From a virus, in IMG/VR virus record IMGVR_UViG_3300046519_000122, positions 1-50,343 of that record: a stretch of 50,343 bases of DNA; one strand, written 5' to 3'. Shown here one piece after another: positions 33,649-50,343 of the stretch (the first letter of the stretch is position 1; each line of letters starts with the position of its first letter). The notes below the pieces were generated by a model that saw only the letters and a list, made by a program, of their open reading frames with translations, was not told the DNA's origin and ran no database searches. The translations under genes and the position numbers were made by a program.

Positions 33649-33657
33649 GACATACCC

Positions 33658-33798: not shown

Positions 33799-33808
33799 GG
33801 CCAACGAC

Positions 33809-34447: not shown

Positions 34448-34458
34448 GGAACCCACGA

Positions 34459-35112: not shown

Positions 35113-35132
35113 TCAATCCGCGATTTCGGCAT

Positions 35133-35160
35133 GGCCCCAGTAACTGGGGCCTCTTTATTT
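35133..35160 (+). terminator. Terminator after the ssb gene
   Basis: An 8-bp stem GGCCCCAG / CTGGGGCC with loop TAA, then TCTTTATTT. It lies inside the rightward early operon, so downstream expression would depend on readthrough, consistent with the boxA at 30133. Confidence 0.85.
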
Positions 35161-35172
35161 CGGGAGCCTGAA

Positions 35173-36209: not shown

Positions 36210-36225
36210 AACGAATGAAGCCGAA

Positions 36226-36249
36226 CTTCGCCGCCAGAACGCGGCGAAG
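36226..36249. promoter_or_regulatory. Strong intergenic hairpin
   Basis: A perfect 9-bp stem CTTCGCCGC / GCGGCGAAG with loop CAGAAC, not followed by a T run. It lies in the 78-base gap before the winged-helix gene. It may stabilise or process the mRNA. Confidence 0.7.
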
Positions 36250-36287
36250 GGCCGAACACATACACCTACTTCCAAGCGGTATTCAAC

Positions 36288-36704
36288 ATGACTCCAATCT
36301 GGCGATATCTCACCCGCCCCGAAGGCATGACAGCGAAGATGCTGGCCGAATCATCCGGGATGACCATTCAGGCAGTTCGCGCTGACCTGGTTGAGCTTGA
36401 AACCCAAGGCAAGGTTGCTCGTGAGCGTGGTGCAATAGGCGCCTCGCATGTCTGGTGGCGTGCCGAACGTCGCCCGCTGGATGGGCTGGACGTGCTGCTG
36501 ATCATGGCGCTGGCCGCAGAAATTCACGACTCGCCGGTCAAGCTCAAGGAGGTGCTGGCCGAGGTGGGCAGTCGTGCCAAACACGCTGGACTGAAGAAGA
36601 TCCTGTACATGTGCGCCACCTCGAAGGCCCCGCATCAGATAGTCAGGCTGTCGGTACAGGAGTATGAGGCCGAGGCGTTTGTGGCAGCACAGAGGGCAGC
36701 GTGA
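36288..36704 (+). CDS. Winged-helix DNA-binding protein
   Basis: A 138-aa protein with an N-terminal DeoR/ArsR-like winged helix (MTPIWRYLTRPEGMTAKMLAESSGMTIQAVRADLVELETQGKVARERG), recognition helix at SGMTIQAVRADL. The C-terminal half is helical (DVLLIMALAAEIHDSPVKLKEVLAEVGSRA). It is likely a regulator in the rightward operon; targets are unknown, though the GTAACC palindromes at 40409-40454 are one possibility. Confidence 0.72.
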   Translation: MTPIWRYLTRPEGMTAKMLAESSGMTIQAVRADLVELETQGKVARERGAIGASHVWWRAERRPLDGLDVLLIMALAAEIHDSPVKLKEVLAEVGSRAKHAGLKKILYMCATSKAPHQIVRLSVQEYEAEAFVAAQRAA

Positions 36705-37030
36705 TGGCGGCCAGCCAGGCAGACCGCAGCGCAAAGGCTGCAAACAAGCGGAAAGCGAAAGGTTCGGAAGAACTTCGGATGCATGCCATGGAAGGTACGC
36801 GGACAGCGCTCGCTGAGCTGATGGAGTGGCACGGCATAGAGGAACAAGGCGAGGCAATGACACTGATGATTCATCACCTGCATGGCCTTGGCCCGAAAGG
36901 CTCTGCGCCCTTCCTTGCTGCGCCGCGCCACGTTTTCGTGGTCAAACAAAATGTGGCGCGACTATTTGATCAGAAAAGCATGCTAATGATTCGAAATGAC
37001 CCCGGAGACGAGGTGATCATTCCACAATAA
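36704..37030 (+). CDS. Small RHH-like protein
   Basis: A 108-aa protein whose ATG overlaps the preceding stop (TGATG). After a Lys/Ala-rich start (AASQADRSAKAANKRKAKG), it reads MEGTRTALAELMEWHGIEEQGEAMTLMIHHLHGLGP, a pattern like small ribbon-helix-helix regulators found near phage winged-helix genes. The C-terminus is a short beta part (PRHVFVVKQNVARLFDQ). Its 3' end overlaps a minus-strand gene by 14 bp. Confidence 0.62.
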   Translation: MAASQADRSAKAANKRKAKGSEELRMHAMEGTRTALAELMEWHGIEEQGEAMTLMIHHLHGLGPKGSAPFLAAPRHVFVVKQNVARLFDQKSMLMIRNDPGDEVIIPQ

Positions 37031-37226
37031 TTCTGCGTGTCTGAGGCGGATAGACTGACATCGTATCCCGGATATTGTGCGTTGCTACAACCTCGCCTGC
37101 CGGGTTGAGTTCGTTGAACGTGTACAGGTCTGCGTCCTGTCCTTTTCGCTGCTCGCGGCTTGAGGCAATTTCAACCAGTGTGTTTTCCGCTGGTATGCCC
37201 AAGACCTTTTTATATTCCTCAGTCAT
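37017..37226 (-). CDS. Small minus-strand protein
   Basis: A 69-aa soluble protein: MTEEYKKVLGIPAENTLVEIASSREQRKGQDADLYTFNELN, then beta-like VVATHNIRDTMSV. AAGGAG lies 6 bases before its ATG. With the next gene it forms a two-gene leftward island in the middle of the rightward operon, converging with the RHH-like gene. Function unknown. Confidence 0.65.
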   Translation of the reverse strand: MTEEYKKVLGIPAENTLVEIASSREQRKGQDADLYTFNELNPAGEVVATHNIRDTMSVYPPQTRRIIVE

Positions 37227-37281
37227 TTCTCACTCCTTAAGCCGGCCCCATGCCGGTCACCACGTATAGCCCACCACCAAC

Positions 37282-37488
37282 CTATTCGCCACCGAACTCG
37301 AGCCCATCAGCTGCAACCTCGATCTCTCGGATAGCAGCCACAACAGATGGCGAGACGCTCTTAGGCAGAAACGTCAGCGACCCAATTGCCTGCTCGCAAA
37401 GCTCATCGACATCAACGTGAAGCTCGCGCGCTGCGTTCAGTACAGCTTCAAGCGCGATAGATAGGGCCAATTCCCGGTTCTCGCTCAT
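37282..37488 (-). CDS. Small minus-strand protein
   Basis: A 68-aa helical, acidic protein from the ATG at 37488 (MSENRELALSIALEAVLNAARELHVDVDELCEQAIG), with AGAAGG just upstream. It ends in ADGLEFGGE. It is the first gene of the leftward island; a promoter would have to lie between it and the divergent methyltransferase gene, a 62-base gap. Function unknown. Confidence 0.62.
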   Translation of the reverse strand: MSENRELALSIALEAVLNAARELHVDVDELCEQAIGSLTFLPKSVSPSVVAAIREIEVAADGLEFGGE

Positions 37489-37550
37489 GACCTTCTCCCT
37501 TCCTGTGGAGAGGTAAGCGTAGGCCATTCCCAACCGCATGGAATCGAACC

Positions 37551-38687
37551 ATGAGCCAGCAGCACCAGATTCTGGTCGGCGACTGCATCGAGATGATGCG
37601 GACGCTGCCGGAAAAGTCAGTTCACACCTGCGTTACAAGCCCGCCCTACTTCGGTCTGCGTGATTACGGCGTCGAGGGCCAGATCGGTCTGGAGGAAACT
37701 CCGGCTGAGTTCATCGTCCGGCTGGTCGACGTCTTCCGCGAAGTGCGGCGAGTACTCCGCGACGATGGCACCGCCTGGGTGAACATGGGCGACAGCTACG
37801 CCGGCAGCTGGGGCGCGCATGGGCGGGACGATATGGGCGTTGGTGTCTCGACGATCAGCCAACGGCAGGTAATGGCGAGTCAGCGCAAGGCCAAGGCGAC
37901 CACGCACGCCGAGTACAAGCCTAAGGACCTGATGGGCATACCGTGGCGCCTGGCCTTCGCTTTGCAGGACGATGGCTGGTATCTACGTCAGGACATCATC
38001 TGGCACAAGCCGAACCCAATGCCGGAGTCGACACGGGATCGCTGCACAAAGGCTCATGAGTATCTGTTTCTGCTCAGTAAGTCGCGCCGGTACCACTGCG
38101 ATATGCAGGCGATTCGCGAGCCGGCCGCTTATGGGCCGACGCCATCAGGCGTGGGATTCGGCCACGGATTTGACGCGGTACCGAAGCCGCGAGTTACTGT
38201 CCCCGCCGGCTGGGACACCTCGACCGGCGAAGGCGGACACGGAACATTCCACAAAGACGGGTCAGCCAGGAGCAATCGTGACAGCTTTCAGCGCGAAGGC
38301 TCTAAGCGCGAGCAGGCGATACCAGGCCAGAGCAAAGGCACGCACCGCCCAGATCGGGAGCCGAGCAGCTGGGATCTTTTGACCCGCAACAAGCGCAGTG
38401 TCTGGACCGTTGCAACCCACAGCTTCAAGGGCGCCCACTTCGCCACATTCCCGCCCGACTTGATCAGGCCTTGCATTCTGGCAGGCGCACCACGCGGCGG
38501 GACAGTGCTCGACCCATTTGGCGGTGCCGGTACCACGTCGCTGGTATCAATGCAGGAAGGCCGCCGGTCGATCCTGTGTGAGCTGAATCCTGAATACGCG
38601 GCAATGGCCAGAGCGCGAATCGACGCTGCCTGGCTTGATGGCGCGGCGCAGATGGATGTGTTCCACGACGCCACGCCCGCGGCCTGA
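37551..38687 (+). CDS. N4/N6 (amino) DNA methyltransferase
   Basis: A 378-aa beta-class amino-methyltransferase. The catalytic TSPPY motif lies at residues 29-33; the cofactor motif GTVLDPFGGAGTTSLV is near 320-334, followed by GRRSILCELNPEYAAMARARID. The middle (about 180-290) is a specificity domain. No restriction endonuclease accompanies it, so it probably protects phage DNA against host restriction or modifies regulation. It is encoded directly upstream of the C5 methyltransferase, giving a two-enzyme methylation module. Confidence 0.9.
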   Translation: MSQQHQILVGDCIEMMRTLPEKSVHTCVTSPPYFGLRDYGVEGQIGLEETPAEFIVRLVDVFREVRRVLRDDGTAWVNMGDSYAGSWGAHGRDDMGVGVSTISQRQVMASQRKAKATTHAEYKPKDLMGIPWRLAFALQDDGWYLRQDIIWHKPNPMPESTRDRCTKAHEYLFLLSKSRRYHCDMQAIREPAAYGPTPSGVGFGHGFDAVPKPRVTVPAGWDTSTGEGGHGTFHKDGSARSNRDSFQREGSKREQAIPGQSKGTHRPDREPSSWDLLTRNKRSVWTVATHSFKGAHFATFPPDLIRPCILAGAPRGGTVLDPFGGAGTTSLVSMQEGRRSILCELNPEYAAMARARIDAAWLDGAAQMDVFHDATPAA

Positions 38688-38732
38688 AACATCCCCTTCC
38701 CAACTTTTAATCACGCCACTGGCGAGGATCCT

Positions 38733-40397
38733 ATGCAGATCGAATACGGCTCCGTTTGTTCGGGGATCGAGGCGGCTTCGGCTGCCTGGCACCCGCTGGG
38801 CATGAACCCGGTCTGGTTCGCCGAGATTGAGCCCTTCCCCTCCGCCGTCCTGGCACACCATTACCCGAAGGTGAAGAACCACGGCGACATGACCAAGCTC
38901 GCCGCCCTGGTGCTTGCCGGGAAGATCAAGGCGCCGCCAGTGCTTGTCGGCGGTACACCCTGCCAAGCCTTCAGCGTGGCCGGCATGCGCCAGGGCCTGC
39001 TGGACCCGCGCGGCGGCCTCACCATCAAATATGTGGAGCTCGCAGATGCAGTTGACCATGTTCGAACAGCCCGAGGCGATGACGAGTGCGTCGTCGTCTG
39101 GGAAAACGTCCCCGGAGTCCTTTCCGATAAGCAAAACGCCTTCGGATGCTTTCTTGGTGCGCTTGCTGGGGAAGACTGCGAGCTGCAGCCTTCAGGGAAG
39201 CGTTGGACAGACGCTGGTTGTGTGTATGGACCCAAAAGAACAGTCGCGTGGCGGATCCTGGACGCCCAATATTTCGGCCTGGCCCAACGACGGCGCCGTG
39301 TGTTCGTTGTCGCAAGTGCTCGAAGAGGGTTCGATCCCCTTGAGGTACTTTTTGAGCGCGAAGGCGTGCGCCGGGATACTGCGCCGCGCCGAGGCGAGGG
39401 GCAAGACGTTACCGGAACAGCTCCTTTCGGCCCTGCGCTCCAGTGCGGATGCGGACACATCTTCCCTGAAGAGCTTGGTCACTACGGCTGCATGAACTGC
39501 GAGGGTGATGAAGGCCCAGCGGTGACAATGTTCGGCGGCATCCCGGCGTTCGGTGGCCACAGCCTGGGAAGCTCGATCGAGCGATCGGCCACGCTCACGG
39601 CGAAAGACACTCGCATGGACATCGAAAGCGAGACGTTCTTCGTTCAACCAAATCGGGATGTCGCTGGCACGCTGCGCAGCACTGACGGCGGAGCGGACGT
39701 TGATCACGGGATGGTAAACCATCTGGTGGCCGGCACGCTTCAATCCAGCGGCAAAGCCGCAGGCAGCGCAACCCAACAAGATGCCGAAGCAGGCCTTCTG
39801 GTTGTGCACGGCACGCAGGACCCCGATGTCATACAAGACAAGGCTCACCCGCTCGGGCGCAATCACGGTCAAGAAAACGCCATCCTCGCCTTCAGCTGCA
39901 AGGATCATGGCGCCGACGCCGGATCGCTCTCGCTCACCCTGCGGGCAATGAACCATAGCGGAAGCCATGCCAACGCCGGCGGCCAGGTCGCTGTGTGCAT
40001 TACTGGGGAGGTGACTCACACGCTTAAGGCTGAGGGATTTGATGGAAGTGAGGACGGCACTGGGCGCGGCCAGCCAATTGTCGCGGCATTCGCTGAGAAC
40101 TCTCGCGCTGAACTTCGATATGAAAACGGCGATGGCAGGATTGCCGGCGCGCTCAGCACCGGCGGCGGCAAGGCCGGGCAAGGAATTCCGTCCGCCCAGA
40201 TTGGCGCATCAGTTCGGCGCCTCACTCCGGTTGAGTGCGAGCGGCTGCAAGGCTTCCCCGACGACTACACCCTGATCCCCTGGCGCGGCAAGCCCGCCAC
40301 AGAGTGCCCGGACGGTCCGCGCTACAAAGCGATCGGCAACAGCAAGGCCGTCCCCGTCGTGCGCTGGCTCGGCCAACGCCTGCTGAAACAAGTCTGA
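38733..40397 (+). CDS. C5-cytosine DNA methyltransferase, long variable region
   Basis: A 554-aa C5 methyltransferase. Motif I is GSVCSGIEAASAAW, motif IV is GTPCQAFSVAG with catalytic Cys77, motif VI ENVPG, motif VIII YFGLAQRRRRVFVV, and motif X AIGNSKAVPVVRWLG. The region between VIII and X (about residues 215-490) is long. It contains repeated TLxxxxxG-type units (ATLTAKD, GTLRSTDGG, GTLQSSG, TLRAMN, HTLKAEG), as in multispecific phage methyltransferases with several target-recognition segments. It also has a zinc-like CGCGH...CMNCEG. Confidence 0.92.
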   Translation: MQIEYGSVCSGIEAASAAWHPLGMNPVWFAEIEPFPSAVLAHHYPKVKNHGDMTKLAALVLAGKIKAPPVLVGGTPCQAFSVAGMRQGLLDPRGGLTIKYVELADAVDHVRTARGDDECVVVWENVPGVLSDKQNAFGCFLGALAGEDCELQPSGKRWTDAGCVYGPKRTVAWRILDAQYFGLAQRRRRVFVVASARRGFDPLEVLFEREGVRRDTAPRRGEGQDVTGTAPFGPALQCGCGHIFPEELGHYGCMNCEGDEGPAVTMFGGIPAFGGHSLGSSIERSATLTAKDTRMDIESETFFVQPNRDVAGTLRSTDGGADVDHGMVNHLVAGTLQSSGKAAGSATQQDAEAGLLVVHGTQDPDVIQDKAHPLGRNHGQENAILAFSCKDHGADAGSLSLTLRAMNHSGSHANAGGQVAVCITGEVTHTLKAEGFDGSEDGTGRGQPIVAAFAENSRAELRYENGDGRIAGALSTGGGKAGQGIPSAQIGASVRRLTPVECERLQGFPDDYTLIPWRGKPATECPDGPRYKAIGNSKAVPVVRWLGQRLLKQV

Positions 40398-40408
40398 CCA
40401 ACCCCAAA

Positions 40409-40454
40409 GTAACCTCCAGAGGTTACATCTCGAAAAGTAACCTGAATGGGTTAC
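40409..40454. promoter_or_regulatory. Pair of GTAACC palindromes
   Basis: Two perfect inverted repeats stand in tandem: GTAACCT-CCAG-AGGTTAC (40409-40426) and GTAACC-TGAATG-GGTTAC (40437-40454). Each is 18 bases, and their starts are 28 bp apart. They fill the gap after the C5 methyltransferase gene and end 12 bases before the next start. They look like operators for an unknown regulator and have no T runs. Confidence 0.75.
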
Positions 40455-40466
40455 AGGGATATCGCC

Positions 40467-40655
40467 ATGCCTGAACCAGTTCGAATGGTCAAAGCCACCG
40501 TTTTCGTTGGCACTGATGGCAGTCATCGCATCAGCCTTCACCGATTGCCTCAAACCCACTTGTCACCAAGCGCCGCGCTGGCAATGGCGCGGGAAATTCA
40601 TCAATACGCCATCGACGCCATGCGGGCTGATGGTGAGCGGGAGGAAGGGAAATGA
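40467..40655 (+). CDS. Small protein behind the palindrome pair
   Basis: A 62-aa protein starting at 40467 (MPEPVRMVKATVFVG), AGGG about 10 bases upstream, coupled to the next gene by ATGA. It has a beta-hairpin-like front and a helical back (SPSAALAMAREIHQYAIDAMRADGERE). Unknown function; first gene after the operator-like palindromes, so it may be specifically regulated. Confidence 0.6.
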   Translation: MPEPVRMVKATVFVGTDGSHRISLHRLPQTHLSPSAALAMAREIHQYAIDAMRADGEREEGK

Positions 40656-41068
40656 GCAATCTAAAAATGGATCGGGACGAACTCGAATCGGTGCTGCACT
40701 GGCGCGGCAAGCATACGCAGGCAGTGAAGGAACGAGACGCTTTGCAGCAGCGCTTGAACGTGGCAGATCAGCGCGTCGATGATCTTGAATCGGACATCGC
40801 CGCAGCGCGAGAACTCCTGAAGCACGGTAGCTCGCCAACCCCTGCGCATTGCGAATCGGTTTTGGATTTCCTCGCCGGACAATCAGCGCCAGAGCCCGCA
40901 CCAAACGAAGAGGACTGGCACATGAACCCATGCCAGCAGGGCCATCGCGATGTAGGCGCGTCCGGCGGTAAGGCCTACTGCTACACCTGCGACGAGACGA
41001 TCACCGCGGCCACAACGCAGGAAGCCTTCGAGCAGTGGAACGCAACGCACCCGGCCACCCCGCAGTAA
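40652..41068 (+). CDS. Coiled-coil and zinc-ribbon early protein (Lar-like C-terminus)
   Basis: A 138-aa protein. Residues about 15-60 are a coiled coil (HTQAVKERDALQQRLNVADQRVDDLESDIAAARELL). The C-terminal part has CQQGHRDVGASGGKAYCYTCDETITAATTQEAFEQWN, a zinc-ribbon pattern with the final WN typical of Lar/restriction-alleviation-type proteins. Next to two methyltransferases, an antirestriction role would make sense, but the family link is tentative. Confidence 0.55.
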   Translation: MSNLKMDRDELESVLHWRGKHTQAVKERDALQQRLNVADQRVDDLESDIAAARELLKHGSSPTPAHCESVLDFLAGQSAPEPAPNEEDWHMNPCQQGHRDVGASGGKAYCYTCDETITAATTQEAFEQWNATHPATPQ

Positions 41069-41134
41069 CCCCGCCGCCCGTTCGGCCCCACCCTATCCCT
41101 ATTGCCTGCTGCGTATGCGGCGAGGAGCGCTGTT

Positions 41135-41866
41135 GTGCCTGTGAAACCTAAGGTTCAGCGATACGAAATAAACACAGCCGGAACTGACTGGGTTGTCGGC
41201 GACATTCATGGTCATTTCAGCAAGCTACAGGCCGCTCTGAACGGCGTCGGATTTAACCCGGCTACCGATCGGCTTTTCAGCGTCGGTGACTTGGTTGACC
41301 GAGGGCCTGAGTCGATTGACTCGTTTCTCTGGATCAACAAACCGTGGTTCCACCCGGTTCAGGGGAATCATGAAGAAATGGCGATCAGCTACGCCAGAGT
41401 CTCCCGCGCGGATAGCGGGATGTACCTGAGCAATGGCGGCGCCTGGTTCCTTGCCTTGAACTGGGATGAGCAGCAGAACTATGCCGCCATGTTTGCCGAT
41501 CTGCCTGTCGCCATCGAGGTTGAAACGGCGGATGGGGTCATCGGAATTGTTCATGCAGACTGCCCATATGAAAGCTGGACGGAATTCACTTGGGCGCTTG
41601 ATAACGCCGGACCTGCTGAAGTGGACCATCTGCAAGCTGTCGCTCAGTGGTCGCGGAAGCGGATAACCGATGAGGATCAGTCGATCGTCACAGGGGTGAA
41701 GGCGGTAATCGTCGGCCACACGCCAATCAAGCAACCAGCAAGGCTGGGCAACGTTATCCACATCGACACTGCGGCATGGATGGGCGGCCACTTCACGCTG
41801 CTCAAGCTTTCTACGCTCGAATGCTTTCCGCCTGCCAATCCAAAGCTCAGCCACGACTGGGATTGA
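41135..41866 (+). CDS. Lambda-type Ser/Thr protein phosphatase (NinI-like)
   Basis: A 243-aa metallophosphatase of the lambda PP family. Metal-binding motifs: GDIHGH (Asp23, His25), GDLVDRGPE (Asp52, Asp55, Arg56) and GNHEE (Asn78, His79), then HADCP and a later GHTPIKQP with HIDTAAWMGG. It removes phosphate from Ser/Thr/Tyr of host or phage proteins. Start: GTG at 41135 with GAGGAG 7 bases upstream. In lambda, ninI lies in the nin region; here it has moved to the rightward operon. Confidence 0.9.
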   Translation: MPVKPKVQRYEINTAGTDWVVGDIHGHFSKLQAALNGVGFNPATDRLFSVGDLVDRGPESIDSFLWINKPWFHPVQGNHEEMAISYARVSRADSGMYLSNGGAWFLALNWDEQQNYAAMFADLPVAIEVETADGVIGIVHADCPYESWTEFTWALDNAGPAEVDHLQAVAQWSRKRITDEDQSIVTGVKAVIVGHTPIKQPARLGNVIHIDTAAWMGGHFTLLKLSTLECFPPANPKLSHDWD

Positions 41867-41925
41867 TCTAACCCCTTCCCCATCTATCCACATGCCTGCC
41901 GGTGTACGGCGGGCGAGGAATCATC

Positions 41926-42354
41926 GTGTCCGAAATGATCGAAGTAAAGACGAGCGCACTGACAGGTTCAGCGCTCGATTGGGCTGTCGCTCGGGTGGAT
42001 AAGGTCAAGACGATCATGATGCCCGTACGGCAATCGGATCAGAAGAAACCTTTTGCCTTGTTCGGATCTCTGGCATTGCCGCTTGCTAGTGAAGAAGGCT
42101 ATGCGCCGTCCAGTTGCTGGCATTGCGGCGGTCCGTTGATCGATAAGCATCTGATCGAGTTCACGGTCGAACACCCCAATCTGATATTCGCGGCTTTGAT
42201 GGATGAAAACGGGATGCCGGTTATTGCGACGGAGGTTTACGGAGCATTTGGTGAAACCTATCTGATAGCGGCCAGCAGAGCCTTGGTGCTAACCAAAATT
42301 GGCGACGCCGTGAAAGTTCCAGCCGAGCTTGTTCAACCACTCAACCCCGCATAG
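41926..42354 (+). CDS. NinX-like protein (DUF2591)
   Basis: A 142-aa protein of the P22 NinX/DUF2591 group: MIEVKTSALTGSALDWAVARVDK at the start, later CWHCGGPLIDKHLIEFTVEHPN and VIATEVYGAFGETYLIAASRALVL. GTG start at 41926, with AGGA 7 bases upstream. A hairpin GCCTGCCG/CGGCGGGC lies just before the ribosome site. Function in P22 is unknown. It follows the phosphatase gene, so two nin-type genes stand together. Confidence 0.8.
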   Translation: MSEMIEVKTSALTGSALDWAVARVDKVKTIMMPVRQSDQKKPFALFGSLALPLASEEGYAPSSCWHCGGPLIDKHLIEFTVEHPNLIFAALMDENGMPVIATEVYGAFGETYLIAASRALVLTKIGDAVKVPAELVQPLNPA

Positions 42355-42376
42355 ACCCCGGACGGAGGTAGCCACC

Positions 42377-42589
42377 ATGGCTGCAGCACAGAATATTGAT
42401 CGACTCCTGCGCCTCGACGAGGTGCTTCACACCACCGGCCTGGGTCGGAATACTGTTTATCGCAGAATCAGGGAGGGCACATTCCCGAAACAAGTTAGAA
42501 TAGGCCCCAACTCGGTCGCCTGGCGCCAGTCCGACATCTCTCAATGGATGACTGATCTGACCCCCAGCAACGACCAATCAGTACATTGA
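42377..42589 (+). CDS. xis: AlpA-like excisionase
   Basis: A 70-aa AlpA/MerR-type winged-helix protein: LLRLDEVLHTTGLGRNTVYRRIREGTFPKQVRIGPNSVAWRQSDISQWM, with recognition helix RNTVYRRI. The start at 42377 has GGAGG 8 bases upstream. Directly before the P4-type integrase, an AlpA protein usually acts as the excisionase or its regulator. AGTACATTGA-type repeats begin within its last codons and continue to the integrase start; they are candidates for its binding sites. Confidence 0.8.
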   Translation: MAAAQNIDRLLRLDEVLHTTGLGRNTVYRRIREGTFPKQVRIGPNSVAWRQSDISQWMTDLTPSNDQSVH

Positions 42590-42837
42590 TTAGTACACTG
42601 AACACGGGGCTTTTTCTGGAGGCCCCTGTTTACCAGCCATACAGGTCTTAAATTGGAAATTTTCAAGGTTTCCACTCTGATCTCCCCTCCCAAACCGGCA
42701 CATGTCAGAAACACAGCCTCAGCCCGCAAAGGCGCTGAATTGGCGTACCGCCGAGTACCATCCCAAACCTTCCCAAGACACGACAGTTAGTACATCATCC
42801 AGTACATTGACCGATAACCCCACAGGGAATGTACTGG
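42579..42837. repeat. AGTACATTGA-type repeats upstream of int
   Basis: Five related sites: CAGTACATTGA (42579-42589), TAGTACACTGA (42591-42601), TAGTACATCA (42788-42797), CAGTACATTGA (42800-42810) and, inverted, CCAGTACATTC (42827-42837). They lie in two clusters about 190 bp apart, on both sides of a terminator-like hairpin. They fit integrase arm-type or excisionase sites, and the phage attachment core may lie between the clusters. Confidence 0.65.
42601..42632 (+). terminator. Terminator-like hairpin between xis and int
   Basis: AACA-c-GGGGC pairs with GCCCC-TGTT around an 11-base loop, then TTACC. It probably ends the rightward operon before int. Confidence 0.55.
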
Positions 42838-44024
42838 TGGCCCTCACTGATACCGCACTTAGACAGGCAAAACCCAAGGACAAACCCTATACGCTCGCCG
42901 ACTCGCTTGGATTGACGATGTACATCGCACCAGGCGGCGTGAAGAGCTGGCACTTCCGTTTCACCTGGCTGGGCAAACAGGTCCGCATATCGTTGGGCAC
43001 ATACCCAGAGATTGGATTAAAAGAGGCACGAGCGCGGCGTGATGAAGCCCGCGAAGAGGTAGCGCAGGGAGTTGACCCGCGCGAATCGAGAAAGGAGAAA
43101 AGGGTTCAGGCCCTTGAGGAGAGCGGCTACACATTCCGCCGCGTGTATGAGGAGTGGTTCGCCTTCCGCAAAGGAAAGCTGACGCCGGGAACCTTGCGGG
43201 TGATCTGCAACGCCATGGAACTGGACTGGCTGCCGGTATTCGGTAGTCGGCAGATCAGCTCGATAACCCGTTCGGACATCGTGAGTATCGTCCGCCGGAT
43301 AGAGAAGCGAGGATCCGTCGCGACCGCAGTGAAGACACGGCAGTTGATGGGGCAGGTTTTCCGGTACGCGATCGCTACCGGAGTTATTACAGTCAACCCC
43401 ACGGCAGAAATGCACGCAGTCACGGAGAAAATCGGACAGCACCAGCCCCACCCGTTTCTGCCCATCAGCGAGTTGCCGAAGACGCTGGCAACGATCAACG
43501 CCGCGAATGTTGGCCAGCAGATCAAGTCGGCCTTCATGCTCATGCTTTATTCAGCAGCACGCCCAGGGGAGGTCCGGCACGCCGAATGGTCGGAAATCGA
43601 TCTGGACTCAGCCACCTGGACCATACCGGCAAGCAAAATGAAGATGCGCCGCAACCATGCCGTGCCCCTCCCGACGCAGGCGGTTGAGCTACTGAAGACC
43701 ATGCTTCCCCTAACCGGGCATCTGCAGTACGTGTTTGTGAACCGGACCGACAACAAGCGGCCGATCGGCACCAATTATGCGAACGGGGTGATCGAGCAGT
43801 GCGGGTTGACCGGCATACAGTCGCCGCACGGGTTCAGGCATCTGTTCTCAACCGAGATGAACCACAAGGGTTACAACCGGGATTGGATCGAGCGACAACT
43901 GGCGCACGCGGACACCAGCATCATCCGCGATGTCTACAACCATGCCACGTACCTTGAGCAGCGCCGGGACATGATGCAGGAATGGGCGGACATCATCACG
44001 AAGGCCGTAAAGGGGAAGGTGTGA
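42837..44024 (+). CDS. int: P4-type tyrosine integrase
   Basis: A 395-aa integrase that inserts and excises the phage at its attachment site. I chose the GTG at 42837 (VALTDTALRQAKPKDKPYTLADS), because P4-type integrases begin with just this sequence and AGGGA lies 8 bases upstream. An ATG at 42702 would add 45 residues over the repeat region and lacks a ribosome site. The N-terminal domain has LTMYIAPGGVKSWHFRF and SLGTYPEIGLKEAR. Catalytic residues are Arg242 (SAARPGEVR), His331/Arg334 (HGFRH) and a Tyr at about 367 (VYNHATYLEQRR). Confidence 0.9.
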   Translation: MALTDTALRQAKPKDKPYTLADSLGLTMYIAPGGVKSWHFRFTWLGKQVRISLGTYPEIGLKEARARRDEAREEVAQGVDPRESRKEKRVQALEESGYTFRRVYEEWFAFRKGKLTPGTLRVICNAMELDWLPVFGSRQISSITRSDIVSIVRRIEKRGSVATAVKTRQLMGQVFRYAIATGVITVNPTAEMHAVTEKIGQHQPHPFLPISELPKTLATINAANVGQQIKSAFMLMLYSAARPGEVRHAEWSEIDLDSATWTIPASKMKMRRNHAVPLPTQAVELLKTMLPLTGHLQYVFVNRTDNKRPIGTNYANGVIEQCGLTGIQSPHGFRHLFSTEMNHKGYNRDWIERQLAHADTSIIRDVYNHATYLEQRRDMMQEWADIITKAVKGKV

Positions 44025-44058
44025 GCTTGCGTAATGCAGACCACCTTCACCGTCATGC

Positions 44059-44409
44059 TCAATTCTTGTCGTGGTCCCGGATACTGTAGGTGACCACGCC
44101 CCATACCTCGAATTCATCGTTCTCAAGGATGTAGCGCGCCGGGTATTTGGAGTTCGCCGACGTGAGCACCGGCATTCCGTCGACGAACGACAGGTATTTC
44201 ACCAGCGGATCGCGGTTGACCAGGGCAATCACGACTCTGCCGGCGGCAGGCTCCATGCCTTTATCCACAATCAGGATGTCGCCGGAAAAGATTCCGGCAC
44301 CCTGCATGCTGTCCCCTTCCACCTTTATTAGGTAGGTGCCAGGCGCGCGGATGTTGAGTAGCTGGTCGAGAGAGATTTTCTGTTGATCGAAAAGCATGGC
44401 AAAGCTCAT
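44059..44409 (-). CDS. UmuD'-like S24 protein
   Basis: A 116-aa S24-family protein. Ser34 (EGDSMQGAGIFSGDILIVDKG) and Lys71 (PLVKYLSF) form the LexA/UmuD Ser-Lys pair. The N-terminus is about 25 residues shorter than in UmuD and has no Ala-Gly or Cys-Gly cleavage site, so it corresponds to already-processed UmuD'. No umuC gene follows. A LexA box lies only three bases before the ATG and no ribosome site is visible; a second ATG at 44397 is possible. Roles: a partner for host UmuC-like polymerases, or a repressor/LexA interference factor. Confidence 0.82.
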   Translation of the reverse strand: MSFAMLFDQQKISLDQLLNIRAPGTYLIKVEGDSMQGAGIFSGDILIVDKGMEPAAGRVVIALVNRDPLVKYLSFVDGMPVLTSANSKYPARYILENDEFEVWGVVTYSIRDHDKN

Positions 44410-44411
44410 AA

Positions 44412-44427
44412 CTGTATATGCGTACAG
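44412..44427. promoter_or_regulatory. LexA (SOS) box upstream of the UmuD'-like gene
   Basis: CTGTATATGCGTACAG is a near-perfect LexA site (CTG-N10-CAG, dyad-symmetric), set right before the leftward gene. Confidence 0.9.
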
Positions 44428-44465
44428 TTAACGAGAATTCCCACTTGCCGGTCAAGACGCTTCGA

Positions 44466-44990
44466 TCAATGGCATACGTCCCTGATGTAGGCCTGCGCCG
44501 CCCTTAGGGCTGCTTGATCTGAGATGATTCCGGCGCGGATGTCGTAAACAGCTGATCCAACAGAAGCAGCGAGTTCGACGGTTCCTGCATCACCCACGCT
44601 GGCGGCGCTGGCGGTACCGGGCACGTTCCCACCACCGGCACTACAACTTCCCGCGATGCGCAGCCGGCGAGTGCCGTCAGCAACAGCACGGCGCAGAGAT
44701 TCGTTTTCGGCATTGGCCTTTTCCTTCTGTTCTGTGGCGGTTTTGTCCAGGGCGGCGAGTTTCTCCTCGGCATCCTGCTGCTTGGCGAGCGCCTTGCGTG
44801 CCTGATCTGCTCCGGTGTTGGCGATCAGCGCGATATCGGCCTGGCGGTTGGCTTCATTGGTGGCGATGACCTTGCCGTAGGCGTTGGCCTGCCAGAACCA
44901 GGCTGCGGAGAATGATCCGACGCACAGCGCCATGACCAGCACCACTACTCCCCACGCCCACACGGGCACCAGCTTCAGGGCGGCGATCAT
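44466..44990 (-). CDS. Rz: i-spanin (Rz)
   Basis: A 174-aa inner-membrane spanin that joins with Rz1 to fuse the membranes at lysis. A membrane helix is at residues about 8-32 (VPVWAWGVVVLVMALCVGSFSAAWFW), followed by a long periplasmic coiled coil (QARKALAKQQDAEEKLAALDKTATEQKEKANAE) and an alanine/glycine-rich end with RLRIAGSCSAGG. I chose the start at 44990, which overlaps the endolysin stop by 4 bp. The Rz1 gene is embedded in another frame. Confidence 0.88.
   Translation of the reverse strand: MIAALKLVPVWAWGVVVLVMALCVGSFSAAWFWQANAYGKVIATNEANRQADIALIANTGADQARKALAKQQDAEEKLAALDKTATEQKEKANAENESLRRAVADGTRRLRIAGSCSAGGGNVPGTASAASVGDAGTVELAASVGSAVYDIRAGIISDQAALRAAQAYIRDVCH
44504..44713 (-). CDS. 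Rz1: o-spanin (Rz1), nested in Rz
   Basis: A 69-aa outer-membrane lipoprotein read in a different frame wholly inside Rz. From the ATG at 44713 it has a signal with lipobox TALAGC, then a proline-rich part (CPVPPAPPAW) typical of Rz1. AAGGA and AAAGG lie upstream of the ATG. Nested Rz1 genes are a classic arrangement. Confidence 0.85.
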   Translation of the reverse strand: MPKTNLCAVLLLTALAGCASREVVVPVVGTCPVPPAPPAWVMQEPSNSLLLLDQLFTTSAPESSQIKQP

Positions 44991-45427
44991 GCTTTGCTCA
45001 GGAACAATGCTTGTTCGGCGGCGCGGCGCTTGGTCAGCCCGGGCATTTCCTTTCCAGCGGCCTTGTTCCAGCGCGGGAACTGATCGGCGGCGCGGGCATA
45101 GTCGCCAGCGTTCAACAGCTTGAGCAGGGTTGATGACGCCAGATTGGCCGATCCAAGGTTGTAGACGAAGCTCATCAGCGCGTCCCACTGGTTCTGGCTC
45201 AGCGGTACCTTTACCAGCGCGGCAAGTTCAGGCTCGAATCGCCCAACGTCGGTCTTAAGATACTCCTCCGCTTGGGTGGCCGTGATCTTCATGCCGGGCT
45301 TTACGCCGCGCGTTGTGCCGTATCCTATCGTCCATGGTTCGCCGCCGGTGGCTGGATCCGGATACGCTGTCAAGCGCAGCCCTTCGGACGACTTGATCAG
45401 GTCGATGCCTCTCTGTGATGTATGCAT
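44987..45427 (-). CDS. Endolysin, T4-type lysozyme (GH24)
   Basis: A 146-aa muramidase that cuts the glycan strands at lysis. The catalytic set is Glu15 (KSSEGLRLTAYPD), Asp24 and Thr33 (PWTIGYGTT). The DALMSFVYNLG and GLTKRRAAEQALF blocks are typical of GH24. There is no signal or SAR segment, so it needs a holin to cross the inner membrane; the best holin candidate is far away at 20.2-20.4 kb, in the same late transcript by way of the circle junction. Confidence 0.92.
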   Translation of the reverse strand: MHTSQRGIDLIKSSEGLRLTAYPDPATGGEPWTIGYGTTRGVKPGMKITATQAEEYLKTDVGRFEPELAALVKVPLSQNQWDALMSFVYNLGSANLASSTLLKLLNAGDYARAADQFPRWNKAAGKEMPGLTKRRAAEQALFLSKA

Positions 45428-45444
45428 TCACTTTTCTCCAGGCG

Positions 45445-45469
45445 TAAAAAAGCCCGCACTGGGCGGGCT
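45445..45469 (-). terminator. Terminator upstream of the endolysin gene
   Basis: Minus strand: AGCCCGC, loop CCAGT, GCGGGCT, then TTTTTT. It stands between the small gene at 45.6 kb and the endolysin, so lysis gene expression needs readthrough or a promoter in the short gap. Confidence 0.85.
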
Positions 45470-45518
45470 AGTCGTGTGTAGCGAGCTTCACAGGGTGGAG
45501 AAACGATTCCTCCTACTG

Positions 45519-45701
45519 CTATTCTGCTTTGGCTTCTTGAATCACTTCGTCAGCAGACTTGCTGTCAAGATTGGAGCGCAGAAACATCTCCACAACGCCG
45601 AGTTTTTCTAGATTTTGATCATTCCCTTCAAAGCCATCCACATCGTGACGGACGTCAGGGGAAGAATGTTCGGCGTTATGCCCAAGGCCTGTATTGCTCA
45701 T
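45519..45701 (-). CDS. Small acidic protein
   Basis: A 60-aa protein from the ATG at 45701 with AGGGA 8 bases upstream. N-terminal polar part (MSNTGLGHNAEHSSPDVRHD), then an acidic helix-rich end (NLEKLGVVEMFLRSNLDSKSADEVIQEAKAE). No motif recognised. It lies between the glycosidase-like gene and the terminator before the endolysin. Confidence 0.6.
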   Translation of the reverse strand: MSNTGLGHNAEHSSPDVRHDVDGFEGNDQNLEKLGVVEMFLRSNLDSKSADEVIQEAKAE

Positions 45702-45823
45702 GTGTTGGATCCCTGATGGTTGCGCAAAGTAGCTGTAATACCCGATCCAACAGAATTTTTCCACCCTACATCATCGATGTACCGCTACCGGATCGCCCCA
45801 GTTCTCTACGTTAAGAGTTCGCG

Positions 45824-46678
45824 TCACGAATTTTTCTTGCCGAAATCGGATACTGCCTTTAGCCAGCCAGTGGATGGATCCAGGACAGGCGCATTGCCGG
45901 ACGCATCGCGAGTCTGACTGCTCGTCCACACTATGCAACCATCAGCTCCTAAGGACTTTAGCGCCTCGAGCCGGCTCATCATCTCGTCATAGCTCAGCCA
46001 TCTGGTGGCTCCATTCTCGCTGACTTCCGGGGTTATGTAAGGAAGGACCTTTTTCGTAGATGAGTACTTCCTTGCAGCTGAAATGTTATAGCGAGCACTT
46101 TTCTCCCATGCGGCAAAATCTCCCTTGCTGTAGTTGTACAAGGAAGGGCTAAAGTAATCGACGGCTTCGGCCAAGACTGCATACTTGGAGTTCAGATCGT
46201 CGTAGCTCTTTTGCTTATCCTCCCGCCATCCATAAGTATTTTGCGGGACGGTCGCATAGAATCCGACCATCGCATCTGGGTTGGTAGCCCTAAATTCCTT
46301 CAGCGTTTGCAGGAGCAAGCCAGGAGTTCCGGGCGCAGAACGATCCCACCCCTCTAGGTCCAGCGATACCGGAACATTCCTTTTCCGGTCGGCAGAGTTG
46401 GCCAGATCACGTATTTTGTCTGCGTTGATCGTCGCCAGCTTCCTGCTCTTCTCACCATCTGGATAATCGAGCACTCGTCGCTCGTACACGACGTCAATAG
46501 GCCGAATACCCAGTGCCGAGAACCAGTCCTTGCTTGCACGACCGCTGATCACCTGTCCTCCATCGACTCGTGAGCCGTAGGGGATAAAGCCATAAATGTC
46601 GAAGGCGACCGCTTGGCTTGCCCCACAAATAGCGGAAGTTGCAACGGCGATGTTAAGAAGCATTTTTTTGAATGGCAT
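45824..46678 (-). CDS. Exported glycosidase-like protein (hyaluronidase-like barrel)
   Basis: A 284-aa secreted protein. Signal peptide MPFKKMLLNIAVATSAICGA with cleavage after AVA (residue 25). The mature part reads as a TIM-barrel glycosidase: FDIYGFIPYG at the start, then VPVSLDLEGWD with acidic pair Asp107/Glu109, like the DxE of GH56 hyaluronidases. Strands MVGFYATVP and AVDYFSPSLYNY follow, and GADGCIVWTSS near the end. AAGGA supports the start at 46678. It is divergent from the rhamnosyltransferase gene. The substrate is unknown; a surface glycan is a sensible guess. Confidence 0.72.
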   Translation of the reverse strand: MPFKKMLLNIAVATSAICGASQAVAFDIYGFIPYGSRVDGGQVISGRASKDWFSALGIRPIDVVYERRVLDYPDGEKSRKLATINADKIRDLANSADRKRNVPVSLDLEGWDRSAPGTPGLLLQTLKEFRATNPDAMVGFYATVPQNTYGWREDKQKSYDDLNSKYAVLAEAVDYFSPSLYNYSKGDFAAWEKSARYNISAARKYSSTKKVLPYITPEVSENGATRWLSYDEMMSRLEALKSLGADGCIVWTSSQTRDASGNAPVLDPSTGWLKAVSDFGKKNS

Positions 46679-46766
46679 TGTCGCTTTCCTTGACCATGAT
46701 GACATCTGGCATCTATGACCATCCTCGGCGCGTAAGCGTTCACGCACTGAGGGAAATCCCTTACGG

Positions 46767-46797
46767 TTGACGCGCCCTGCGACTTGCGAGGTATCAT
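46767..46797 (+). promoter_or_regulatory. Possible promoter for the rhamnosyltransferase gene
   Basis: TTGACG (46767-46772) and TATCAT (46792-46797) with 19-bp spacing, upstream of the 46841 start. Spacing is long, so this is tentative. Confidence 0.4.
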
Positions 46798-46840
46798 GGC
46801 TCATGAAGGGAAAACCAGAATGATATCATTAAGGATTTTT

Positions 46841-47731
46841 ATGAGTGAATCACAACCACTACAAGCACCTTTGTACCCCATGGTAGGGGTAATGTTTTTC
46901 AGTATTTTGACCAAGCGCAGCACAGGATCATGGATTTCTAGCCGTGAGAACGACTGGGAAGATCACGTAAAGAATATTTTGTCGATCGACAGACTGAGAT
47001 TTAGATTAAAGCTGCTTACCGAAGTAACTATACCTCAGCTAGCACAGCAAACATTAAAGCCTGACAGATCTTGGTTCAGGTTTATTATAATCACATCAAA
47101 GTTGCTTCCAGATGAGATTAAAGATGCTCTTTACGAAGCTGCAAAATCACACCCATGGCTTTCCATTCAGGAGCGCGGGCCTGATGACTGGCTTGCTGCA
47201 GAGCCAGCAGTGGGCTTGGAGCTCAAGGACATGCCTTGTGCTTACGACACAGAAACATTTCCCTTTTTCTCGTTCAGGTTAGACGATGATGATTTTCTTG
47301 CGCTGAGCTACCTTGAGAAGACCCAACAATACATAAGACATGAAAATGTAAACAAGTTGGTTACTTATGATAAAGGCGAGAAAATCCTTTGGGATATAGA
47401 AAACGCAAGGATTTGTAATATCGCATCAAATGAGAAGGCTTTTCTAGCCCTTGGTTTGGGCGCAGTGTGCGAAGCAGATACCAAAACGAAGAACGTTGTA
47501 TCTGACGTTAAGTCTGTTTATGTAGGCAAGAACCACTTTGAGCTTGGAGAAGATTATCAGCACATCATTGATCACTCTGAATCAATGTATGTATGGTCTC
47601 ACCATCCTAGCCAAGACACATTTGGAAGATTTAAATCATCATCATTCGAAGGTAACTGGACTAGCCCGCCGGATGATATTAGTGAACGCCTGCAATCATT
47701 CCCAAACCTACTTAAGTTCGTAGGAAAATAG
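46841..47731 (+). CDS. Putative rhamnosyltransferase, low-GC cargo
   Basis: A 296-aa protein of the Rhamno_transf glycosyltransferase type: VGVMFFSILTKRSTGSW, RLRFRLKLLTEVTIPQLAQQ, WFRFIIITSKLLPDEI, and FFSFRLDDDDFLALSYL with the DDDD run as candidate nucleotide-sugar/metal site. The start at 46841 has AAGGA 5 bases upstream. The gene is clearly richer in A/T than its neighbours, faces against the late genes and is closed by a strong hairpin, all signs of recent transfer. It may alter host O antigen in lysogens. Confidence 0.8.
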   Translation: MSESQPLQAPLYPMVGVMFFSILTKRSTGSWISSRENDWEDHVKNILSIDRLRFRLKLLTEVTIPQLAQQTLKPDRSWFRFIIITSKLLPDEIKDALYEAAKSHPWLSIQERGPDDWLAAEPAVGLELKDMPCAYDTETFPFFSFRLDDDDFLALSYLEKTQQYIRHENVNKLVTYDKGEKILWDIENARICNIASNEKAFLALGLGAVCEADTKTKNVVSDVKSVYVGKNHFELGEDYQHIIDHSESMYVWSHHPSQDTFGRFKSSSFEGNWTSPPDDISERLQSFPNLLKFVGK

Positions 47732-47742
47732 CAGTACATTAA

Positions 47743-47777
47743 TTGTTAACGCTGGGTTTATGGCCCAGCATTAACAA
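47743..47777. terminator. Large bidirectional hairpin
   Basis: TTGTTAA-c-GCTGGG pairs with CCCAGC-a-TTAACAA around a 7-base loop. It separates the converging rhamnosyltransferase and tailspike genes and can act on both. Confidence 0.8.
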
Positions 47778-47786
47778 TCTCAAGCA

Positions 47787-50180
47787 TCACTTTGTCGCCC
47801 ACTTACCAACTTCAACCCTGCTCCCTGATGCTGACGCGGCGACCAATCCTGCCGCAAGCGTAACGACATTGCCTGCAATAGCGCTTACCGAGGTCCAGTG
47901 AGTGTCACGGTTGTCCATATTGATGCCTATTACCATTCCGACGGCCACGCCAGTGGCATCGCTGACCGTAATGGAGGTCGCCGCTGAAGCCGCTGCAGCT
48001 GTGGTTGATGTCTTGAGTCGGAATGTGCATATGTACACCGCCGTGCCGTCTGATTTGTACACCGTGTATCCCACCGGAGCCCACCCGGCGGTTGGTAAAG
48101 CGGTAACCGCGATGTTGCTTTGGGTTGGCCGCATGGACAAGCCCTGATACAGCGAATTGTGAGGATAGGCGGCGAAAATCTGGATCCTTCGCGCCAGGGC
48201 ATTTGCCGTCTGCGCCGAGGACACGCGAGCCGCAACTCTGACGTAAACCGCGCCGGCATCCAGTGCTGACTGAAGAATAGTTGCGTACGAAAAAGCCTGC
48301 CCAGCACTGGTTGTTAATGCATTTCCAGAAACGGTGGTGATTGAGTTTCCGGTAATCCAACCAGCTGCAGCATTGATCGGCATCTCATTCTTGTCATAGA
48401 ACTCCAGCACCGGTCGATAGAGCACCACATCACCAGCATCACCGCCTGCATAAAGGAAATAGAAGAATAAGTTTGCCTCAATGGGGAGCATGTCGGAGTA
48501 ACACATCGGCTGGTTACCGCCAGTGCCCCCCACTCGTTGCAAATGCGCCTGGCGCGAGTTCAGTTCTCCTACTCGAAACCCCACGATAGGATCGGTAATC
48601 ATTGCCTGGGCAACACAAGTAGTGTTGTGACGTGCCCCAAAATCGTCACTCACGACATTAGCCACGCCTAAATCTGTGATGGTCCCGGAGGCTAACGCGC
48701 TCCATGTGTCATCGTTGCCGCCGTCCCACGTGTTTTCGATCCAGTTATTCGCCGTTTCTACGCCGAAAATTACTGTGGTGGGACCTGCCTCAAGCCGTAG
48801 CCCTCGAAATTGGTTTTTGTTGCCCGTCTGGATGTTAATAGTGGTCTCGTTCTCGAACGTACCACCCCATATCTTGTTGTGGTTGTGGCGGTAGGATCCA
48901 CCGCTATAAAACTCGAATGACCGCTCCAACCAGAAGGTATTTTCGTTAATCCATTGGTCTTTACTGCCAATTCCGCCACCAGAAGGACCGGCGGCATTAG
49001 CTGGGTCAGTATCCCATGACAACTTGTCAATCTGGCCGAGGTGAAAATGGCAGTAGCCAATACTTCCGTTATTCGCGGAGCTCGTAGATGCCCAGAGCTG
49101 AAGGTGCGTGCAACGGCCGATTTGTACGAACATCCCTTTGGAGCCGAGCATTTGGATAGCAGGCACGGTTCGTGTTCCATCGGTCCTAACACACTGACCG
49201 ATAGACACGGTTGGCGCCCAGCTGATAGCCGAGCTGCCCCCGATGATCAAACCTACCTGATCCGCAGTGTAGAGAAGGAATGTTGCTTCGGCGGCGTCGA
49301 GAGGTACGTTCCTGAAATTAACTGGTAGGTAAAGTCGATACGTCCCGGATACCTTCAGGCCTTTGCCCTGCAGCAGCGCGGCAGCGGCTGCGGCATTCAT
49401 TGCGGCCGACTGATCCGAGCTTGCGCCAGGCACGGCTCCGTAATCCCGAGCGTCAATCCAGTAGTCGATTTTGGCCTGAGCCCGGGCGATGCTCTCGGTC
49501 AGTGCGGAGGGTAGCCAGGCGGGATCGAGCTTTCCTGAGGTGTCAGCGCGCGGAATCCCGCTCGGAGACGGCGCGACAGTTATGCTCTCCTCCAGCAGAG
49601 CGATGGCTTCAAGGCTGTCGTTGGCGCTCCAGCCTTCGGATTTGTAGAGATATTCGGTCTGTTGCTCGGTGTTGAAGTAGCGATCACCTTCCTGCAGCGG
49701 CAGACCGTCATCGCGAGTTACTGGGGATTCTGCTGCTGGCTGAAGAAAGCCAGCCGTACGGGAGGTAGCGATATCAGCAGCATCCTCTGCTGCCTGTGCG
49801 GCCTCGTTTGATGCGGTCAGGGCCTGCTCAATTGCCTGAGACGACATGGCGGTCTTGCCGGTGTTGACGGCGGCGCCTGCCTGATTCTTCCAGACGGTGT
49901 AGATCGTGTCGGCGTCGGAGGACTGCACAAGGAAGATGCCACCGTCAGCGGTTGCGGCCAAGCCTGCGGCCGCGGTCTGATAGATGGTGGTTGCGATGCT
50001 GATTTTTTCGGCGGCATCTGACTGAATTTCAAGGATGACCTGTTTCAGGTTCTGGATGTTCCCTGAGTCGGTAGGGATCGTTCCTGCTGCTACAGCATCG
50101 TTGGCAAACCGGAACAGGATGTTGCTACCGACTTCTGCTCTTACGGTGGCGATCTCGAGCCGCTGAGTCTGGTCAGCCAT
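47787..50180 (-). CDS. Tailspike / large tail fibre
   Basis: A 797-aa receptor-binding protein. Residues 1-225 are the virion-attachment part with an alanine-rich coiled segment (IEQALTASNEAAQAAEDAADIATS). At about 240, WIDARDYGAVPGASSDQSAAMNAA marks the start of a pectate-lyase-type beta-helix, going on to about 510 with many Asn/Gly turns. The C-terminus is beta-rich. Such spikes cut or bind O antigen; active acidic residues cannot be assigned here. AAGGA supports the start at 50180. The terminase gene ends 56 bases upstream across the circle junction. Confidence 0.85.
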   Translation of the reverse strand: MADQTQRLEIATVRAEVGSNILFRFANDAVAAGTIPTDSGNIQNLKQVILEIQSDAAEKISIATTIYQTAAAGLAATADGGIFLVQSSDADTIYTVWKNQAGAAVNTGKTAMSSQAIEQALTASNEAAQAAEDAADIATSRTAGFLQPAAESPVTRDDGLPLQEGDRYFNTEQQTEYLYKSEGWSANDSLEAIALLEESITVAPSPSGIPRADTSGKLDPAWLPSALTESIARAQAKIDYWIDARDYGAVPGASSDQSAAMNAAAAAALLQGKGLKVSGTYRLYLPVNFRNVPLDAAEATFLLYTADQVGLIIGGSSAISWAPTVSIGQCVRTDGTRTVPAIQMLGSKGMFVQIGRCTHLQLWASTSSANNGSIGYCHFHLGQIDKLSWDTDPANAAGPSGGGIGSKDQWINENTFWLERSFEFYSGGSYRHNHNKIWGGTFENETTINIQTGNKNQFRGLRLEAGPTTVIFGVETANNWIENTWDGGNDDTWSALASGTITDLGVANVVSDDFGARHNTTCVAQAMITDPIVGFRVGELNSRQAHLQRVGGTGGNQPMCYSDMLPIEANLFFYFLYAGGDAGDVVLYRPVLEFYDKNEMPINAAAGWITGNSITTVSGNALTTSAGQAFSYATILQSALDAGAVYVRVAARVSSAQTANALARRIQIFAAYPHNSLYQGLSMRPTQSNIAVTALPTAGWAPVGYTVYKSDGTAVYICTFRLKTSTTAAAASAATSITVSDATGVAVGMVIGINMDNRDTHWTSVSAIAGNVVTLAAGLVAASASGSRVEVGKWATK

Positions 50181-50216
50181 GTGATTTCCTTGGGACGAAT
50201 TTAATGAGCGCGACCA

Positions 50217-50343
50217 GGAGCGGCCGACGGATTGAGTTATGAAAGCCAGTTGCTGGAGAAGAAGTCGCCGCCGCCCGAAATGAGCATGTCGGCTACGGCG
50301 TCGAAGATCGTGTCGATCTGGTCGTCGTGGTCGTGGGTGTCGT
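50217..50343. repeat. Terminal direct repeat, right copy
   Basis: Identical to bases 1-127. It contains the 3' end of terL and confirms the circular map; the unique genome is 50,216 bp. Confidence 0.95.

Follow-up and report, generated by a model that had tools for sequence, protein, structure and literature searches.

A cassette composed of a PF11316 glycosyltransferase gene and a gene for an exported GH56-like (hyaluronidase-like) TIM barrel, located beside the spike gene of a temperate myovirus, is probably a lysogenic-conversion moron for a cell-surface polysaccharide. The cassette was analysed within the window, by which we mean the whole stretch of DNA under study, an IMG/VR record of 50,343 bases. 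The first 127 bases of this record (positions 1-127) are identical to its last 127 bases (positions 50217-50343), and this direct terminal repeat makes the record a circularly permuted map that closes on itself at 50,216 bases. The phage is a temperate myovirus, as its sheath, baseplate, repressor and integrase families show.

Read along the minus strand, the gene order is terminase large subunit, spike, cassette, lysozyme, Rz, S24 peptidase and integrase. The nearest gene past the slot that holds the cassette is that of the lysozyme (endolysin; 44987-45427, minus strand), recognised by family match, as was the Rz spanin ORF (44466-45188, minus strand), in which a candidate Rz1 is nested at 44504-44773. 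The integrase gene is at 42702-44024 on the plus strand, and the order spike, cassette, lysis genes and integrase is like that of phage D3. The sequence-only reading had placed the cassette between the lysis genes and the spike gene (47787-50180), and this position was correct. The S24 peptidase between Rz and the integrase (PF00717, UmuD-like; 44059-44409) is a stand-alone protein that is present in many relatives. Elsewhere in the window, two adjoining DNA methyltransferase genes (phrog_67 and phrog_116) were seen in the early region at 37551-40397, and a 238-aa gene at 9873-10589 lies on the opposite strand close to the tape measure gene, inside the tail module. The latter stretch has a low GC content and is also unmatched in a nearly identical relative, which makes it another candidate moron.

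The transferase and the exported barrel

The transferase gene (46841-47731, plus strand, 296 aa, with the ribosome-binding site TAAGGA just upstream) matched the PF11316 Rhamno_transf profile with 64.8 bits (E=1e-17), above the curated cut-off of 23. Its GC content is 42.5% versus 57.4% for the window, of which it is the lowest-GC stretch, only 0.4% of the stretches of that size being equally low. The sequence-only reading had described this gene as a low-GC rhamnosyltransferase; its composition and its family membership were confirmed, but "rhamnosyl" is a guess, since only one rhamnosyltransferase has been proven in PF11316, whose other sequences are uncharacterised (PMC9145935). Neither a signal peptide nor a transmembrane stretch was seen in the protein, which is predicted to be cytoplasmic, and an acidic DDDD motif encoded at 47282-47293 is a candidate DxD. 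Relatives of the transferase were found neither in viral contigs nor in 399 Pseudomonas-genus genomes, the latter search having been run without a positive control. No match for either the transferase or the barrel was obtained in 50,697 GenBank phage records, and NCBIfam has no name for either protein.

The barrel gene (45824-46678, minus strand, 284 aa, ribosome-binding site AAGGA) was characterised by profile and by predicted structure. By inspection, it begins with a Sec signal peptide, MPFKKMLLNIAVATSAICGASQAVA (46604-46678, minus strand), with predicted cleavage before F, and residues 1-22 are disordered in the model. The protein scored 20.8 bits (E=2e-4) against PF01630 Glyco_hydro_56, under the Pfam cut-off of 23.2, and we therefore call it GH56-like and do not file it as a GH56 member. 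Comparison of its AlphaFold2 model (pLDDT 82) with solved structures showed that the best six chains were all GH56 hyaluronidases, with Z scores of 19.4, 19.3, 19.3, 18.9, 16.8 and 15.5 and alignments spanning 243-250 residues, while the next unrelated family was GH164 (Z 14.2). A Foldseek search with the same model also gave GH56 hyaluronidases as best matches, and a profile built from nine barrel homologues matched bee hyaluronidase with E=8e-8. The barrel thus resembles the GH56 hyaluronidases (bee venom, Ves v 2, HYAL1 and PH-20) in its fold (Z 15.5-19.4) and in its D-x-E-x-W motif, whereas it differs from them in being a bacterial exported single-domain protein, with about 14-23% identity and a score below the Pfam cut-off.

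Residues D107, E109 and W111 of this motif were invariant in 9/9 barrel homologues. The predicted catalytic pair D107-x-E109 (in DLEGW; codons at 46352-46360, minus strand), assigned from invariance and secondary structure, is located at the end of strand 103-107 in the model. The D-x-E region could not be aligned to solved GH56 chains by sequence alone. The exported DxE barrel proposed earlier is therefore upheld by the signal peptide and by the TIM-barrel model, for which GH56 was best, and the catalytic pair survived the structure prediction that had been suggested as a check. GH56 enzymes use the N-acetyl group of the substrate itself in catalysis, so a HexNAc-containing polymer is, by analogy, the likely target of the barrel.

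Non-phage homologues of the barrel, 42-45% identical, were found in five Sphingobacteriaceae SusC/SusD loci. The locus that was scanned in detail (L020) holds a heparinase II/III-like protein, GH88, GH20, glucosamine-6-phosphate isomerase and a sulfatase beside the barrel homologue; in the locus of Mucilaginibacter arboris (L008), a sulfatase was confirmed and the other genes of this type were recognised by eye only. Genes of these kinds would suit the breakdown of a glycosaminoglycan-like polymer, which speaks for a HexNAc-uronate substrate of the barrel. Weak barrel relatives also occur as parts of larger proteins of about 820 aa in Sphingobacteriaceae (L015-L017), and the two of them that were viewed with their surroundings (L024 and L025) adjoin SusC/SusD-like genes. 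The barrel was absent from 398 of the 399 Pseudomonas-genus genomes searched, the exception being a prophage-bearing P. parafulva genome, and it was not found in plasmids. The dN/dS ratio between two phage copies of the barrel is about 0.12-0.16, that is, purifying selection acts on a barrel relative, which argues against mere passengers.

A cargo slot whose content is exchanged with the receptor half of the spike

The transferase and barrel genes diverge from an intergenic region (46679-46840) that holds the ribosome-binding sites of both and in which both promoters are presumed to lie; a scan of this region gave no more promoter-like matches than expected by chance. The tail spike or tail fibre gene (47787-50180, minus strand, 797 aa) matched phrog_18162 (1.6e-39; PHROGs: tail fibre). 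The spike is conserved from its first residue to about residue 302 (49273-50180); what follows (47787-49272) is the swapped receptor-binding half. The structure model of the spike had a pLDDT of 38, and the label "tailspike" is thus not confirmed by fold. The spike also showed weak similarity to Pasteurella phages and to Vectrevirus, and beta-rich spikes match broadly.

The convergent spike and transferase genes are separated by a hairpin (47742-47778) with 15-nt arms that are 93% complementary, or 16 bp with G-U pairs, whereas random sequence of this length gave a stem of 5.8 bp on average and of at most 11 bp in 300 trials. No clear U-tract was found on either side and the terminator scan did not list this hairpin, so we infer its terminator action; it is probably the transcription end for both genes. 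The large bidirectional hairpin noted by the sequence-only reading was accordingly retained as a stem of 15-16 bp, far above the random 5.8 bp, but not as a called terminator. At the 14 loci in which the first cargo gene is convergent with the spike, the hairpin stem was 6-16 bp (median about 10), and random sequence reaches 10 bp in 1%.

We then compared 34 viral loci having the N-terminal part of the spike in common (about 35 loci were examined). From the spike stop to the lysis gene, the related loci differ completely, except that the same terminator and ribosome-binding site precede the lysis gene. In the window, this constant downstream anchor, AGCCCGCCCAGTGCGGGCTTTTTTACGCCTGGAGAAAAGTGA (45428-45469, minus strand), comprises a terminator-like hairpin (45451-45469) and the ribosome-binding site of the lysis gene. 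The anchor consensus, GCCCGCCcAGYGCGGGCTTTTTTTCGCCTGGAGAAAA, was matched in 29/35 loci, once in the window and in 0/20 shuffles, although the lysis genes that follow it belong to several kinds. Spike stop and anchor are 19 bases apart when the slot is empty and up to 5.8 kb apart when it is filled; in the window, 2,330 bases separate them.

Counted by hand, glycan-active genes recognised by Pfam occur in about 13 of the 22 distinct types of occupied slot. These are PF11316, PF20102 with PF05704, PF05704 alone, GT61, GT92, GT2, WbsX with RgpF, LicD with a cytidylyltransferase, hexapeptide (acetyl)transferases, a heparinase-like lyase and GH16, where PF20102, a family of unknown function, is taken as transferase-like. 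The median GC content of the cargo is about 10 points under that of its own locus. Judged from this comparison, the gap between spike and anchor is a dedicated cargo slot, which is either empty or occupied by glycan-active genes of diverse types.

Several other genes were observed in or near the slot. A TIR-domain protein (PF13676; L041, 13186-14055) adjoins a hexapeptide transferase in one slot and is possibly a defence gene. A second cargo site past the lysis gene was seen in phages with an empty first slot, where it holds a glycosyltransferase-like pair (L027, 13363-15836) or an acyltransferase 3 (L055, 9708-10772). A 148-176-aa protein with no known family and an ABC transporter (PF00664/PF00005 in L004) lie beyond the barrel in L004 (8946-11435) and L036 (11115-13659), and they occur without the barrel in L054 (10349-12760); no partner export genes were seen beside the 148-176-aa protein in these three loci.

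Comparison of the window with record IMGVR_UViG_3300046691_000106 (loci L026, L061, L097 and L098) showed 99.2% DNA identity over 33076-45469 and 95% over 49273-50343, while 45470-49272 had no full-length DNA match and is replaced by a different block. The junctions are sharp, within about 50 nt, and fall at about codon 302 of the spike and at the slot anchor. The 3.8-kb exchange block (45470-49272), absent from this relative, consists of the receptor half of the spike and the whole cassette, including a 60-aa ORF (45519-45701, minus strand) that has no family match. The other blocks of the window unmatched in the relative are mainly in the early region and the tape measure gene. The receptor half of the relative's spike is the nearest to that of the window (57% identical), yet its cargo is different: the gene that faces the spike carries an SGGVDS motif and matches no known family, and divergent from it lie a gene for a secreted GH16 protein (1.2e-23) and a hexapeptide transferase gene. 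The arrangement of a facing non-exported protein and a divergent secreted glycosidase thus recurs with a different fold.

Comparison of loci L004-L007 with L033 and L036 showed that a receptor half (about 91% identical), the PF20102 gene, the barrel, the small protein and the PF05704 gene recur together in a different spike and phage backbone. The cassette and the receptor half of the spike can therefore move between phages as a single block. The barrel is, however, common to phages with unrelated receptor halves (the window versus L033, L036 and L004), so the pairing of spike and cassette is not strict. A strict co-variation of spike and cargo was rejected: receptor halves at least 88% identical share their cargo, as does one pair at 62%, but pairs at 53-57% do not, and related cargo is also found beside unrelated spikes.

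Comparison with known conversion systems and other explanations

The gene order of D3 is tail fibre, iap, O-antigen acetylase, wzy-beta, endolysin, small genes, attP and integrase; that of P22 is spike, terminator, gtrCBA, attP and int, and that of Sf6 is spike, terminator, oac and integrase. Conversion by D3 alters the receptor so that phage binding is lost, and the gtr operon of P22 acts likewise (reviewed in PMC11436027). As in the window, the conversion genes of D3 are on both strands between the tail fibre and the endolysin, with the integrase beyond, and the D3 endolysin is 55-65% identical to the lysis genes of several relatives of the window. D3 has no conversion gene in common with the window, however, and uses acetylation and a polymerase switch, whereas the window would use sugar transfer plus exported hydrolysis. 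D3 is a siphovirus, whereas the window is a myovirus (tail sheath, baseplate).

In P22 (gtrABC) and Sf6 (oac), as in the window, a conversion gene adjoins and converges on the spike gene, with int beyond. Those phages have a terminator between spike and conversion gene and a promoter specific to the latter; the window has a hairpin at this place and a presumed promoter. The Gtr proteins of P22 are membrane-bound and use a flipped lipid-linked sugar, whereas the window encodes a predicted soluble cytoplasmic transferase and a glycosidase. The slot of the window holds only the transferase, the barrel and the 60-aa ORF, with no GtrA flippase or GtrB bactoprenol transferase, and a gtrABC serotype-conversion operon was rejected as its identity.

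Like the conversion cassettes of D3, P22 and Sf6, that of the window lies beside the spike and near lysis and integrase genes, and it encodes a polysaccharide-synthesis or modification enzyme (PF11316, 1e-17; GH56-like fold). Of the features of an insulated unit, convergent orientation and a hairpin are present, with no U-tract and no promoter above chance. The O-antigen conversion unit of the sequence-only reading stood in so far as this is an autonomous-looking surface-glycan cassette in the same place as the D3, P22 and Sf6 genes, with other glycan-active genes in the slot of its relatives; its target may be O antigen or another surface polysaccharide. The PL16 phage hyaluronidases of Streptococcus prophages are lyases used to pass the capsule during infection (PMC11669647). 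Like them, the barrel is a prophage-encoded enzyme predicted to act on a surface polymer, but it is an exported GH56-like hydrolase and not obviously part of the virion.

The barrel is on the same strand as the lysis genes and the spike, and in order with them, and the window encodes a member of a Q-like antiterminator family (21130-21804), so read-through of hairpins is possible. The barrel could then be a lytic-phase product of the late operon that clears capsule or matrix at burst so that progeny escape the debris, with only the transferase, or neither protein, acting in lysogens. We consider this unlikely: the barrel has its own ribosome-binding site and diverges from the opposite gene with a common upstream region, and a hairpin flanks the cassette on each side (47742-47778 and 45451-45469). 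The acetylase of the D3 conversion locus is also in the late orientation, so orientation does not decide between a lytic and a lysogenic role.

The foreign GC content of the cassette and cargo, the near-absence of the barrel from Pseudomonas-genus genomes (missing from 398/399) and its cousins in catabolic loci of Sphingobacteriaceae would also fit neutral or nutritional cargo, brought by illegitimate recombination to a tolerant spot by the spike and having no link to the receptor, with a barrel that might help the host to use glycosaminoglycan-like polymers from the environment, much as its cousins in Sphingobacteriaceae apparently do. This is improbable when many unrelated glycan-synthesis families recur in the slot, barrel relatives are under purifying selection and no uptake or uronate-catabolism genes lie beside the barrel. 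It is very improbable that the transferase acts on pili, flagella or some other host molecule, or on a phage protein, and not on a polysaccharide, since polysaccharides are the common denominator of the slot relatives (acetyltransferases, LicD, WbsX/RgpF, GH16 and lyases).

Proposed action and meaning

Lysogenic conversion of a surface polysaccharide is thus the explanation that we favour. Expression of the cytoplasmic PF11316 transferase in the prophage would start at a promoter of its own that reads counter to late transcription, and this enzyme would attach a sugar, which we guess to be rhamnose, to a surface glycan that is still being assembled. The GH56-like enzyme would act after export, in the periplasm or farther out, and cleave a polymer that contains N-acetylhexosamine. 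Together they may alter or shorten the polysaccharide recognised by the neighbouring spike or by the spikes of rival phages, and the altered polysaccharide would block superinfection and re-adsorption to sister cells. The analysis shows what the genes are by family or by fold, how they are arranged, the cargo slot, the exchange of the block and purifying selection on a barrel relative, whereas the expression of the cassette in lysogens, its substrates, the surface change and the exclusion are inferred.

This explanation is supported by the PF11316 match, the GH56 fold, the invariant D-x-E-x-W motif and the dN/dS ratio of about 0.12-0.16, and also by the Sphingobacteriaceae loci, the slot cargo of the relatives and its GC content, the block exchange and the position and orientation common to D3, P22 and Sf6. 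It is weakened by the late-gene direction of the barrel, which could make it a lytic-phase gene, by the lack of a strict one-to-one pairing of spike and cassette and by the presence of a recognised glycan gene in only about 13/22 slot types.

A more specific scheme, which we regard as possible and rather doubtful, is a write-and-erase conversion in which the cytoplasmic transferase adds a new sugar while the secreted endo-glycosidase removes the old polymer, and in which the pair and the receptor half of the spike are passed on as a single exchangeable module. If this scheme is true, a phage that changes its receptor would at the same time acquire a way of destroying that receptor on the cells that it lysogenises, and in sister phages the same task would fall to secreted glycosidases of unrelated folds (GH56-like and GH16).

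Phage serotype conversion has classically involved few gene sets (gtr, oac and wzy). In this whole family of environmental Pseudomonas prophages, surface-glycan genes of many kinds seem to share one standard slot, with a constant anchor of terminator and ribosome-binding site on one side and a variable receptor-binding domain on the other. Exported glycosidases would be added to the tools of conversion, and the window would represent a known plan with new enzymes. The pairs of spike and cassette in these phages provide a ready catalogue in which the matching of receptor and receptor modifier may be tested directly.
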